Assembly: GCF_028748185.1 (NCBI RefSeq)
Contig: NZ_CP118164.1
Span: 2,170,001-2,234,000 of the forward strand
From: Bremerella sp. P1
GTDB taxonomy: Bacteria; Planctomycetota; Planctomycetia; Pirellulales; Pirellulaceae
Reading direction: 5' to 3'
DNA length: 64,000 nucleotides
In this document: in pieces, positions 55,872 through 60,278 of the stretch
Position numbering within the stretch: position 1 is the stretch's first letter
Layout: the number at the start of each line of letters is the position of its first letter
The notes under the pieces: generated by a model
The model's database searches: none
What the model was told of the DNA's origin: nothing
What the model saw: only the letters and a program-made list of their open reading frames with translations
Position numbers and translations under genes: made by a program

Positions 55872-56621
55872 TTATCGAGCGTCGGGGTAGGTCTTTCCCA
55901 ACGAAATGGAATCGGCGATCCAGAAGAATTCGTTCTGCTTTTCGCCGTAACCGCGTTCGCGCTTCATGAGCACTTCGACATCCCACAGCGGCTTGCCCGA
56001 CTCTTTGTCGATCACTTGAAACTCGTGACGTCCATAGTTCACGCCTTCGTAAAAACTGGACGAGATGTCGCGGACGAACTTCGCTTCGAGCGGGCCGCCT
56101 GCCCACCCTCGCAACACCTTCACGGCGTCGTGCGTTTCAAACGCCTCGAGATCTTCCTTGGTCAGATCGTCCTTCTGGTAATAGCCTTCCAGCGAGGTCG
56201 TTGCCGACTGACGACCATTGGGGCGGAGCGTCAGCTGGTGGGCTTCCATCGTCTTCTTTTCCAGCAGCAAGTCGAGCCAGCTCTTGGCCATCTCGCGCGA
56301 AGTGCTCATCATCACGCGATCGCGAACGCCCCCCTGCGTGACGCCAATGCCCAACCAGATGGCAGCCAGGCCCATACCGATCAGGGCCATTCCCTTCCCG
56401 GTCAGGACATCCGATTTTTGAATTTGGTAGTAGGCCACCAGCGATAGAATGATGGCCAGCACCGGGACGATCCAAAGGACCGATGTAAAAATCGCGAGAA
56501 CCGAAAACACCCCCAGCACCATGCCGCCAATGGCCAGCCGGCTTAGTTCTCGATATTCGAGCAGGTCTTCGTTTTCGGCGGAAAATCCAGCACCGGAAGC
56601 GTGGTTAGGCGTGTCAGTCAT
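55872..56621 (-). CDS. Membrane protein of unknown function (last gene of the PilT cluster)
   Basis: A 249-residue protein. After an acidic N-terminus, two hydrophobic hairpins (about residues 30-68) and a third helix (about 78-94) anchor it. The rest (about 100-249) is soluble, with 'REMAKSWLDLLLEKKTMEAHQ' and 'RERGYGEKQNEFFWIAD'. It resembles DUF4190-type membrane proteins in the N-terminal half. It follows the CvpA-like gene by 47 bp. Confidence 0.68.
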   Translation of the reverse strand: MTDTPNHASGAGFSAENEDLLEYRELSRLAIGGMVLGVFSVLAIFTSVLWIVPVLAIILSLVAYYQIQKSDVLTGKGMALIGMGLAAIWLGIGVTQGGVRDRVMMSTSREMAKSWLDLLLEKKTMEAHQLTLRPNGRQSATTSLEGYYQKDDLTKEDLEAFETHDAVKVLRGWAGGPLEAKFVRDISSSFYEGVNYGRHEFQVIDKESGKPLWDVEVLMKRERGYGEKQNEFFWIADSISLGKTYPDAR

Positions 56622-56668: not shown

Positions 56669-57232
56669 TTAGCGATCTGCTTCCGCTTGGGCACGCTCAA
56701 AGCGTGTTCTTGCGAACTCGACCATGTTGAACGGTTTGCCAGGCATCCCCAAATTCGATGGAAGTTGAAAGACAACGTAACCGTATGTACGTCCGGCAAA
56801 CGAAGGAACGCTGGGACCATTCATCATGTTGATGAAGTTTGGCTCTCCAACTGGCGAGGCAAACAGCGTAAAGCTAATCCAGCAGTACATCACGATGGTA
56901 ATCAAGCCTGTACCGATCCAGTCGAACGCGGGATCGAGCTTCTTGCCGAATCGGACCGGGTATTTCGACAGCCAGTTGACGTACTTCCGCAGCGAACCGT
57001 AGAAGCACCAAAACAGGAACCAGATGAAAATGAACTCGGTGAAACCGCTCCATTCGGGTGCCTTTTCGTTAATCTTGGCGGCTGACACGGGCGCGATATT
57101 GACGGCGATCACACTGCACAGAATCACCATTTGGCAGCTGAGAAAGTTCGTCCAGAAACACTGATTCCAGAAGACTGCGAACAACGCCAGCAGCAGGACG
57201 ACAGTAAAGACGAAAAAGTACAACACAGCCAA
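56669..57232 (-). CDS. Polytopic membrane protein, tentatively CvpA-like
   Basis: A 187-residue protein with four probable helices (about 5-23, 28-50, 64-82, 105-128) and a soluble tail ending in 'FARTRFERAQAEADR'. The order of helices and the linker 'LSKYPVRFGKKLDPAFDWIGTG' recall CvpA-type proteins, but the similarity is weak. It lies 71 bp after the GspE-like gene and belongs to the same transcription unit. Confidence 0.6.
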   Translation of the reverse strand: MAVLYFFVFTVVLLLALFAVFWNQCFWTNFLSCQMVILCSVIAVNIAPVSAAKINEKAPEWSGFTEFIFIWFLFWCFYGSLRKYVNWLSKYPVRFGKKLDPAFDWIGTGLITIVMYCWISFTLFASPVGEPNFINMMNGPSVPSFAGRTYGYVVFQLPSNLGMPGKPFNMVEFARTRFERAQAEADR

Positions 57233-57303: not shown

Positions 57304-59130
57304 CTACTCTTTGAGGACACGACTGATTTCTTCCAACGAAGTCACCCCCGTTGCCACCAGTCGAATCGCTTCCTCCTGAAGCGTCTTGTTGCCTGCTTGC
57401 TTGGAAGCACCTCGAATCGCTTCGAGCTTGGGCGTTTTCACAATCGCGCGACGAATACCATCGTCGACTTTCATCAGTTCAAAGATGCCCACGCGGCCGT
57501 AGTAACCGATGCCACCACAATGCTCGCACGGCGGCTTCTTCGGATCATCCGGGCCGGGAGGCGTCGGTGTCTTGTAAAGCTTATCCACCTTATTTGGCGG
57601 GATTCCCATGCGTTTGAGCAGGGCCACGCTTGGCTGAAATTCTTCGCGACAACCCTTACACAGTCTGCGGCAAAGACGCGTGTACAAAACGCCATTTAAC
57701 GCGCTCGCGTACTCGTCCGCGGGGATCTTGAGAGAAAGAAGCCGCAGGATCGCCTCGGCACAATCCTCTTTGGCATTCACCGTCGTGAAGCACATGCGTT
57801 TCGAGTTGGCCTCGTTGAGCAGAATGCCAAACACTTCTGGGTTGTCGATTCGACGAACGAACAACGCATCAGGCTGATTTCGAATCACCGAGGTCAATGC
57901 GGCCTCAGGTGCTTCGCCGGCAGCCGGATCGTAGTACTTGAGCGAGATGTTCATCACCTCAGGCTCGCGACTATTCTTCACTTCGATCCCTGCGAAGTCA
58001 CGCATCAGACGATCGGTCGAAGACAGGCCGGTTTGCCACAATGTGGTAAAGCCTCCTTCAGGGCGGGCCGCGAAGACGAACAGACCGTTGGGGGCCCCCA
58101 TCAATCCCTTGACCTCTTGGATCATGGCATCCCGCATACCCAGGTCTTCTAAGGTCTCGAGCTTGGCGGTGACCGCAGGCACAGCGAGAATCGCTCGTTC
58201 GCCGGTCTGCGTCCCTTGTGTATTCAGCGAGCAGATCACCTTCTTCTTGATGTCGTACTTGATCTCAAACTCGCCTGCTTGCCGCGCGCGACGCTCGTTG
58301 GGATTCATGTTCGAGATGAGCTTCAAGACCACCAACATCTGATCGCTCGACTCTCGATCACGATTCTCACCGGCAAGCCAGACACCATCGATCAGGTACC
58401 GCATCGCGACGGTTTCCTTGGTGTAGTCCATCATCACCTTGGACGCGCGGCGGGTGATCATCTCGAAGATCAGCTCCTTCACCCAGACATAGGCATCGGG
58501 CATCTTGCGAGCGGTGTAGAGGTTCTCGGTGTTCTTGGCCGGATCGCTATTGCCCATGGCCGTGATCTGAATCTCAGGCCCTTCTTCCCAAGGCTCTTTC
58601 AGCTCGCGTTTCACCTTTCCGCCCGACCATGTTCCGATCAGGTAGCGGATGTGATCTTTGGTCATCACGCGTTCGTGCGGGTCGAGCATCGCGTTGCGGG
58701 TCTTGATGTACATAAACAGCGGCACGGCCCACGCCAAAATCGCCAACAGAAATCCGCCGAAATAAGGGATCGCCGCGCAGAACAGCCAGAAGGTCAAGCC
58801 GAACACCAGGACGTTCGGAATCACCCACGCTTCTGGCGAAAGCTTCCGCTGGGGACAGTCCTGGCCGATCCAGTCGGTCGAATAGGTCCACATGCAGAAC
58901 AAGATGATGACCGGCAACAGCAGAAACGGATTGACGAAGAAACCTTCGTCCGTCGGATCCGTCGCGGCAACCGGAGCCGGCGTACTTGCGGGAGCAGCTG
59001 CTGGGGCTGCTTCAGGCGCCGCAGCCGCTTCCCCACCCTCTTGGGCAAGCAAGGTCGACTCGAATCCAAATGAAGCAGTAGCCAGGCCGATCAACAGAAA
59101 GGCCAAAATCAAAAAAGCGATTCTTCGCAT
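57304..59130 (-). CDS. Membrane-anchored, catalytically degenerate GspE/PilB-like protein
   Basis: A 608-residue protein. A signal peptide or N-terminal helix (1-22) and an Ala/Pro-rich linker come first, then a membrane helix (about 67-82) and one or two more (about 105-140). A GspE-type fold follows from about residue 205. The Walker A site reads AARPEGGFTT (354-363), with Phe361 where Lys belongs. Walker B reads DALFVRRIDN (421-430), with Arg427 in place of the catalytic Glu. The His box has Asn452. The zinc-binding Cys residues survive (C491, C494, C535, C538), as does the C-terminal part. It cannot be a normal ATPase. It starts one base inside the pilT stop (TAATG), so translation is coupled. 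Confidence 0.87.
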   Translation of the reverse strand: MRRIAFLILAFLLIGLATASFGFESTLLAQEGGEAAAAPEAAPAAAPASTPAPVAATDPTDEGFFVNPFLLLPVIILFCMWTYSTDWIGQDCPQRKLSPEAWVIPNVLVFGLTFWLFCAAIPYFGGFLLAILAWAVPLFMYIKTRNAMLDPHERVMTKDHIRYLIGTWSGGKVKRELKEPWEEGPEIQITAMGNSDPAKNTENLYTARKMPDAYVWVKELIFEMITRRASKVMMDYTKETVAMRYLIDGVWLAGENRDRESSDQMLVVLKLISNMNPNERRARQAGEFEIKYDIKKKVICSLNTQGTQTGERAILAVPAVTAKLETLEDLGMRDAMIQEVKGLMGAPNGLFVFAARPEGGFTTLWQTGLSSTDRLMRDFAGIEVKNSREPEVMNISLKYYDPAAGEAPEAALTSVIRNQPDALFVRRIDNPEVFGILLNEANSKRMCFTTVNAKEDCAEAILRLLSLKIPADEYASALNGVLYTRLCRRLCKGCREEFQPSVALLKRMGIPPNKVDKLYKTPTPPGPDDPKKPPCEHCGGIGYYGRVGIFELMKVDDGIRRAIVKTPKLEAIRGASKQAGNKTLQEEAIRLVATGVTSLEEISRVLKE

Positions 59131-60278
59131 TAAACCATCCCAGGTTGTGCCACATTGATGCCTTTGAGTGCCATCTTCAACGCTTCGACGTTTGGTGCCA
59201 CGGCGAAAGCGGTTTCGCGATCGATTAGTTCTTTGTCGATCAACGACTTGAGGCTCATCGTGAAGTCTTGCATACCGTCGTCTTTACCGATACGAATCGC
59301 ATCGGGCAGCTTACTGTCCTTGCCTTCCAGAATCAGTTTCTGGACGGTTGGATTCATCGTCATGATCTCGACCGTCGGCACACGGCCGACGCCCGGCTTG
59401 ATCGACTTGAGGAGTTTCTGCGCGACGATCCCCTTCATATTGAAGGCGATAGCGCTGCGAATCGAGCCGTGCATTTCTTCGGGGAACAAGTCGAGAATAC
59501 GGCCGATCGTACTGGAGGCACTCGAAGCGTGGATCGTTCCGAACACCAAGTGCCCCGTTTCCGCCGCGTGGATAGCCGTGAGGAACGTTTCCTGATCACG
59601 CATTTCACCAATCAGGATGATGTCGGGGTCTTCACGCACGGCGTGCGCCATCGCAATCTCGAAGTCTTTCACGTCTTGCCCGATCTCGCGCTGATTGATC
59701 AGGCACTTATCTTCGGTGTAGACGAATTCAATCGGGTCTTCCAGCGTCAGGATGTGTTTCGAGTAGTGTCGGTTGATCCAGTTGAGCATCGACGCGATCG
59801 TCGTTGACTTACCAGAACCCGTCACCCCGGCCAGCAGGACCATCCCTTGATCGAACTTGCACAGTTCTTCCATCACCGGCGGAATGTTCAGCCCTTCGAA
59901 GTTGGGAATCCAGTTGTTAATACGACGAGCGACCAGACCGACGTTGCCCAGTTGGGTGAACATATTCACACGGAAACGCCACTTCTCGCCGTCGACGTCA
60001 ACGACGTGGGCAAAGTCGGCACCGCCGTTGTCTTGGAAGATTTTCGTATTGCGTTCATCCAGCAGAGGCCACAAGAGTCGCAGCATTTCTTCGGCATCGA
60101 TCGGCCCCCGGTTGAGGTTCTTCAGCGTACCGTTGACGCGCACGATCGGCGGGCGGCCCACCTTCATGTGCAAGTCGGAACCTTCCAGCTTCACCAGGGC
60201 GCGGAAGATCTTGTCGACTTCGTACTCTTTGTCCCCCGAGAGAAACTTCTCGGCTATCGCTTTATCGATCTCTGCCAT
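59130..60278 (-). CDS. PilT-family ATPase
   Basis: A 382-residue cytoplasmic retraction-type ATPase. An N-terminal PAS-like domain has 'GSDLHMKVGRPP'. Walker A is intact, GVTGSGKS at 151-158. The Asp box is 'TLEDPIEF'. Walker B is 'DIILIGEMRD' with Glu225 and the His box is 'GTIHASS'. Such ATPases depolymerise type IV pili; this one is not next to pilus structural genes but to a dead GspE-like partner. The stop codon overlaps the partner's start. Confidence 0.93.
   Translation of the reverse strand: MAEIDKAIAEKFLSGDKEYEVDKIFRALVKLEGSDLHMKVGRPPIVRVNGTLKNLNRGPIDAEEMLRLLWPLLDERNTKIFQDNGGADFAHVVDVDGEKWRFRVNMFTQLGNVGLVARRINNWIPNFEGLNIPPVMEELCKFDQGMVLLAGVTGSGKSTTIASMLNWINRHYSKHILTLEDPIEFVYTEDKCLINQREIGQDVKDFEIAMAHAVREDPDIILIGEMRDQETFLTAIHAAETGHLVFGTIHASSASSTIGRILDLFPEEMHGSIRSAIAFNMKGIVAQKLLKSIKPGVGRVPTVEIMTMNPTVQKLILEGKDSKLPDAIRIGKDDGMQDFTMSLKSLIDKELIDRETAFAVAPNVEALKMALKGINVAQPGMV

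Follow-up and report, generated by a model that had tools for sequence, protein, structure and literature searches.

What does an intact PilT-type ATPase do beside a membrane-anchored GspE-like protein that has lost the residues for ATP hydrolysis, at a locus where no pilus structural gene adjoins the pair? The gene pair that raises this question lies in a 64,000-nucleotide stretch of DNA from Bremerella sp. P1 (hereafter the window), whose genome is a single contig of 6.96 Mb. We know of no conserved pair of a pseudo-ATPase and a working motor described in the PilB/PilT/GspE family. Here, we find that many planctomycetes carry a linked set of PilT, GspE and CvpA-like genes, and we propose a three-gene, single-motor machine in which PilT is the sole motor, pseudo-GspE is a dedicated scaffold, and an anchor module together with the CvpA-like protein normally ties the assembly to the membrane. 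We put the probability of this reading at roughly 45%.

A first-pass annotation of the window had described an intact PilT reading frame that overlaps the start of a GspE-fold reading frame, and both frames and their TAATG overlap were confirmed on the minus strand at the coordinates listed below. The pair that it treated as the unit is real, but the unit is larger and includes a CvpA-like third component that had been overlooked. The features of the locus are as follows.

59130..60278, minus strand: PilT-family ATPase, 382 aa, with all catalytic motifs intact (TIGR01420, 397 bits; cut-off 319)
59128..59132, minus strand: TAATG, overlap of the PilT stop and GspE start codons, one base being common to both
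57304..59130, minus strand: membrane-anchored pseudo-GspE, 608 aa (T2SSE match, alignment, model and dN/dS)
59041..59130, minus strand: signal-peptide-like N-terminus of pseudo-GspE, aa 1-30, with Ala-Gln near 29-30 (helix 2-20 in the model; AQ in the alignment consensus)
58615..58944, minus strand: three-TM anchor module, aa 63-172 (model and its own sequence signature)
58042..58068, minus strand: degenerate Walker A, ARPEGGFTT, aa 355-363 (alignment)
57841..57873, minus strand: degenerate Walker B, PDALFVRRIDN, aa 420-430 (alignment)
57769..57792, minus strand: degenerate His box, CFTTVNAK, aa 447-454 (alignment)
57517..57660, minus strand: zinc module CxxC...CxxC, Cys491, Cys494, Cys535 and Cys538 (cysteines in 54-55 of 55 Pirellulales copies)
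56669..57232, minus strand: CvpA-like membrane protein, 187 aa, third gene of the cassette (synteny, PF02674 matches of relatives, model)
55872..56621, minus strand: DUF4190 membrane protein, a possible accessory (linkage in two genera)

The PilT protein is a full member of the PilT/PilU family of retraction ATPases by the curated cut-off (397.5 bits against TIGR01420), and its Walker A, Asp box, Walker B and His box are all intact. PilT is likewise intact in every locus read in three sets of relatives (70/70, 80/80 and 20/20, with some genomes in both of the first two sets). The cassette protein differs from studied PilT and PilU in lying outside a pilus operon and in having a GspE-fold protein as its partner, and the AIRNLIRE-type motif of that family is changed in it to (V/I)xKL(I/V)LE. 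A scan of genomes found orthologues in Blastopirellula marina (86%), Rhodopirellula baltica (75%), Stieleria, Roseimaritima and others, and a 95% match in a MAG; all records retrieved with the window's PilT came from planctomycetes or from bacteria without a name.

The partner retains the architecture of a secretion ATPase. Pseudo-GspE matches the T2SSE family (PF00437) with 129.1 bits (gathering cut-off 24.9; E 2e-37), its best matches among solved structures are PilB, PilF and GspE ATPases, and its predicted model (mean pLDDT 87) contains a complete N2D-CTD fold in which residues 210-608 superpose on PilB over 379 residues (Z 38.6, rmsd 2.2 A). It shares with PilB of type IVa pili and GspE of type II secretion both this fold and the CxxC...CxxC zinc module, but falls far under the equivalog cut-offs for either (PilB TIGR02538, 161 of 676 bits; GspE TIGR02533, 157 of 630 bits), has lost the catalytic residues, and carries its own signal sequence and three-TM anchor. 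Genes for a matching PilC/GspF, PilM/GspL or pilin do not adjoin it. The set of motifs required for ATP hydrolysis (Walker A and B, Asp box and His box) is not intact in the protein. By alignment, the Walker A lysine is Phe361, the Walker B glutamate is Arg427 and the His-box histidine is Asn452, as originally annotated, and the four zinc cysteines are kept.

Comparison across 55 Pirellulales copies shows that these three residues do not form a conserved set. Position 361 is Leu in 40 copies, Met in 6, Phe in 5, Tyr in 2, Thr in 1 and Lys in 1, so that the Walker A lysine is gone in 54/55 while Gly360 is kept in 55/55; the Walker B glycine at position 426 is replaced in 55/55 (Arg in 41, Pro in 14); and Arg is the commonest residue at the position of His452. 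From these counts, Phe361, Arg427 and Asn452 are genus-level choices, and the conserved trait is the loss of catalysis across the order. In dead proteins generally, the residues that are kept in active and canonical proteins but lost here cluster in the nucleotide-site motifs, while scaffold glycines and zinc cysteines persist.

Pseudo-GspE is under strong purifying selection. Against an 88%-identical congener, its dN/dS is 0.075 overall, 0.047 in the ATPase part and 0.13 in the N-terminal part; in the same comparison PilT gives 0.015 and the CvpA-like gene 0.049, the synonymous sites of the latter being near saturation. The protein is thus a genuine pseudo-ATPase under selection and paired with an active PilT. 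That the dead state reflects a sequencing error or a decaying pseudogene, an idea that no observation favored and to which we give practically no weight, is refuted by the same dead motifs in six congeners, by dN/dS of about 0.05-0.10, and by order-wide death.

Loss has also reached the N2 domain, where positions 231-236, 246, 301 and 316 belong to the lost set, and this bears on whether PilT and pseudo-GspE could alternate in one hexamer with the dead subunits as non-catalytic spacers. In EpsE, arginines of the N2 domain act across subunits. Because arginines 246, 301 and 316 have been lost along with the P-loop, contacts of this kind would not be available in trans from a dead subunit. The two proteins moreover belong to different subfamilies, and homo-hexamers are the form taken by family members such as PilT and PilU. 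A mixed ring would agree with the coupled translation of the two genes and with the N2D-CTD fold common to both proteins, but we regard it as very improbable.

The N-terminus of pseudo-GspE is predicted to comprise a helix at residues 2-20, a disordered Ala/Pro-rich linker at 24-64, and TM helices at 68-94, 99-120 and 123-148. We infer signal-peptide cleavage near residues 29-30; since a cleaved signal would be followed by three TM helices, the ATPase fold probably lies on the cytoplasmic side, and a basic stretch after the third TM helix agrees with this orientation. The anchor has a signature of its own, W..DW(V/I)..D...W...P...Y..RN..V..T..H, and usually occurs as one clear copy per genome, within reading frames of GspE length. 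The model thus bears out the annotated N-terminal signal/TM region, but not the proposal that the dead protein had gained it, as catalytically intact orthologues bear the same anchor. Nor is the anchor universal: some Rhodopirellula-like genomes of family f1 and those of f109 (family codes are arbitrary labels without taxon names) have a dead GspE of about 445 aa that lacks it.

Synteny over 38 related loci reveals a conserved co-directional gene downstream of GspE, which encodes a CvpA-like membrane protein; in the window it starts 71 bases downstream. Among aligned cassette members, 34/38 match PF02674 at E<=0.01 and several relatives score above the cut-off. Cassette members have in common with the CvpA (colicin V production) family a four-helix membrane core, but the window copy falls below detection by the PF02674 profile, and a link of this family to PilT/GspE was not found in the open-access literature. 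The model of the window copy (pLDDT 92.8) has four long helices followed by C-terminal helices and has no counterpart in the PDB at E<=0.001; in distant cassettes, CvpA-like proteins carry long C-terminal extensions (350-680 aa). Linkage of the DUF4190 gene to the cassette is confined to two genera, that of the window and a neighboring Blastopirellula-like one.

The order PilT - membrane-GspE - CvpA recurs across Planctomycetota. In a phylum-wide set of 292 genomes, 73 have the anchor module and 71 a CvpA-like gene: 70 have both, 3 the anchor alone, 1 the CvpA-like gene alone and 218 neither, although the genomes are related and a Fisher value is therefore no proper probability. At least one of the three genomes scored as anchor-only (G198) proved on closer inspection to contain a CvpA-like gene. 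Among 46 whole genomes, with weak CvpA matches below 40 bits left out, 26 have anchor and CvpA, 18 neither, 2 the anchor without a clear CvpA (G506, G395) and none a clear CvpA alone. All 20 loci read from f7, f60, f67, f89 and f96 show PilT - anchored GspE - CvpA, with GspE dead in 20/20. A GspE match was found in 148/148 Pirellulales genomes searched, most top matches having the score and extent of cassette copies. The annotated linkage to PilT held in nearly all relatives: PilT adjoins GspE in nearly every locus, and some f4 genomes retain GspE-CvpA with PilT elsewhere.

Exceptions to this order suggest that the cassette has two parts. Anchor and CvpA have been lost jointly in Rhodopirellula-like f1 genomes and in f109, which keep PilT and dead GspE. 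A start-stop overlap of 1 or 4 bases between PilT and GspE occurs in 51/76 anchored pairs versus 3/72 anchor-less pairs (loci that are not independent, some genomes being counted twice). Mariniblastus-type genomes have the order PilT - anchored dead GspE - short dead GspE - CvpA, plausibly an intermediate arrangement. Joint loss, overlap counts and the Mariniblastus-type order together point to PilT and dead GspE as the core, with anchor and CvpA as a second, co-inherited unit. Two loci carry two tandem dead GspE copies between PilT and CvpA (L109:7120-11136 in G523 and L108:6933-10104 in G471).

We considered whether pseudo-GspE instead acts as a brake in trans, filling the PilC/GspF or PilM socket of an ordinary type IV pilus or type II secretion system, so as to block PilB and favor PilT-driven retraction. 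The genome contains several PilB/PilC systems, including a PilB-PilT-PilB locus at 4.98 Mb, the pseudo-GspE fold is still PilB-like, and protein regulators of PilB exist (PMC11656802, PMC8213720). A brake would nevertheless leave unexplained the co-inheritance of CvpA, the membrane anchor, and the intact orthologues that occupy the same cassette, and we consider it an unlikely account.

The surroundings of the cassette bear on two further alternatives. As originally annotated, no pilus genes lie beside the pair: pilin, platform and secretin genes are absent from the window neighborhood, and neither these nor a gene for a prepilin peptidase turned up beside the cassettes examined in the window and in relatives' neighborhoods. 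Cassette gene content amounts to ATPase-fold and CvpA-like genes, short of a complete type IV pilus or type II secretion system, and neighbors include genes for TsaE (tsaE), AIR-synthase-like, amino-acid kinase, Ser/Thr kinase and alanine racemase proteins. Such neighbors of other kinds, and the standing of CvpA as the anchor's most faithful partner, would suit a role outside pili and secretion, with PilT powering an envelope process through CvpA and pseudo-GspE as the linker. To our knowledge, however, those PilT/GspE-family motors whose role has been studied serve pilins, pseudopilins or DNA transfer, and CvpA function is poorly defined; we think this reading, too, improbable.

The cassette could alternatively drive an ATPase-less pseudopilus locus in trans. 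One such locus in the same genome, at 3.211-3.215 Mb, encodes three T2SSF proteins together with short prepilin-like ones but no T2SSE, and an f4 genome (G024) holds a dead short GspE paralogue in a locus of similar order. Yet clear conservation of the platform protein tested stops at the genus, with no match at E<=1e-12 in G121, G274 or G167, whereas the cassette is phylum-wide, making this alternative a rather poor prospect. The cluster itself (L223:6422-12340 in G000:C1, about 3.2114-3.2173 Mb) comprises three consecutive T2SSF (GspF/PilC-like) genes, then genes for short prepilin-like proteins and for one with DUF1559, and a secretion ATPase is missing from its vicinity. In G024 (L065:6920-15215), the dead short GspE paralogue is followed by three GspF-like reading frames, judged by size and order, and then by prepilin-like ones; other f4 genomes (L069, L071) have the same paralogue with the GspF/prepilin-like cluster not adjacent.

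How did the partner die? The first-pass annotation had reckoned that homologues retaining the Walker motifs would point to a sequence error. Distant relatives do retain them, but the cause is lineage-specific loss: GspE is intact in f4, f5, f35, f49 and f100, with Lys, Glu and His kept in 24/24 f4/f5 copies, whereas every Pirellulales copy sampled is dead, as are those of f94 and of eight families from another PilT clade, with catalytic residues gone in f51, f73, f78 and f94. A tree of GspE places all dead copies in one group (97*), a grouping open to long-branch attraction because the dead copies are long branches, and a tree in which Pirellulales and the active f4/f5 copies form a clade fits equally (lnL +2.9, p-AU 0.57). 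On the PilT tree, which is free of the GspE long-branch problem, partner state needs 3 changes and a single clade of actives is rejected (p-AU 3.8e-5); both trees come from quick searches. We therefore set aside a single origin of the dead state, for which the case was the grouping of long branches in the GspE tree. Since regain of a full catalytic site is unlikely, the simplest reading is about three independent losses of GspE catalysis, the third of which (f94) depends on a single long branch. Differential loss after an old duplication is another possibility, as one f107 locus (L110:5593-13239, G440) keeps an active anchored GspE and CvpA 1.3 kb upstream of PilT, a dead anchored GspE and CvpA.

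Conserved gene order, a dead GspE accompanied by a PilT that is always intact, purifying selection, predicted fold and topology, and the fact that anchor and CvpA come and go together all support the single-motor model. In this model, PilT would be the only ATP-hydrolyzing part, and pseudo-GspE, presumably made together with PilT through translational coupling, would be a non-catalytic scaffold kept for its fold and zinc module. The three-TM module would pack with the CvpA-like protein to fix pseudo-GspE on the cytoplasmic face of the inner membrane, bringing PilT to one membrane site where its movement could be passed on, either to a pilus-type platform encoded elsewhere or to CvpA itself as the final substrate. 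The scaffold role is inferred, as are physical contact between PilT and pseudo-GspE and between the anchor and CvpA, the direction in which force acts, and the identity of the final substrate. The pair can do without membrane tethering, since two lineages keep PilT and dead GspE without anchor or CvpA. The term scaffold describes the derived state only, because the intact GspE of f4, f5, f35, f49 and f100 is presumably a second motor. More broadly, and tentatively, much of Planctomycetota may possess an undescribed envelope machine in which PilT works via an anchored pseudo-ATPase and a CvpA-like protein in place of a PilC-type platform, and in which a second motor has become structural about three times.

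The proposed role of pseudo-GspE in holding an ATPase at the membrane resembles that of GspL and PilM, the inner-membrane recruiters of GspE and PilB; those are separate actin-like proteins, whereas the cassette uses a GspE fold with its own TM module. Like the PilT-PilU and PilB-TfpB pairs, the cassette has two related motor proteins for one machine, but each member of those pairs is a natural ATPase, while the cassette partner is dead by descent and membrane-anchored. An inactivated PilT can still function with PilU (PMC11656802). Searches of open-access full text yielded no description of a PilT/pseudo-GspE/CvpA cassette and nothing on pseudo-ATPases of the PilB/PilT/GspE family; the same searches gave no paper that combines PilT, CvpA and Planctomycetes, and CvpA and PilT were mentioned together only in two plant-pathogen genome papers. 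Rhodopirellula expression data held nothing useful on the cassette.

Recurrent death of the partner, with PilT never dead, amounts to a natural experiment on the non-hydrolytic role of the GspE fold, and the faithful linkage of CvpA gives a concrete way into a membrane family whose function is poorly known. We know of no genes assigned to the pili-like fibers of planctomycete crateriform structures, for which the cassette is one testable candidate. Such fibers have been described on these structures in Planctomycetes (PMC5394234). Elsewhere in the Bremerella genome, at about 1.104 Mb (L225:5252-6896 in G000:C1), an orphan intact GspE-like protein without zinc cysteines adjoins a small look-alike of STAS-type anti-sigma antagonists.
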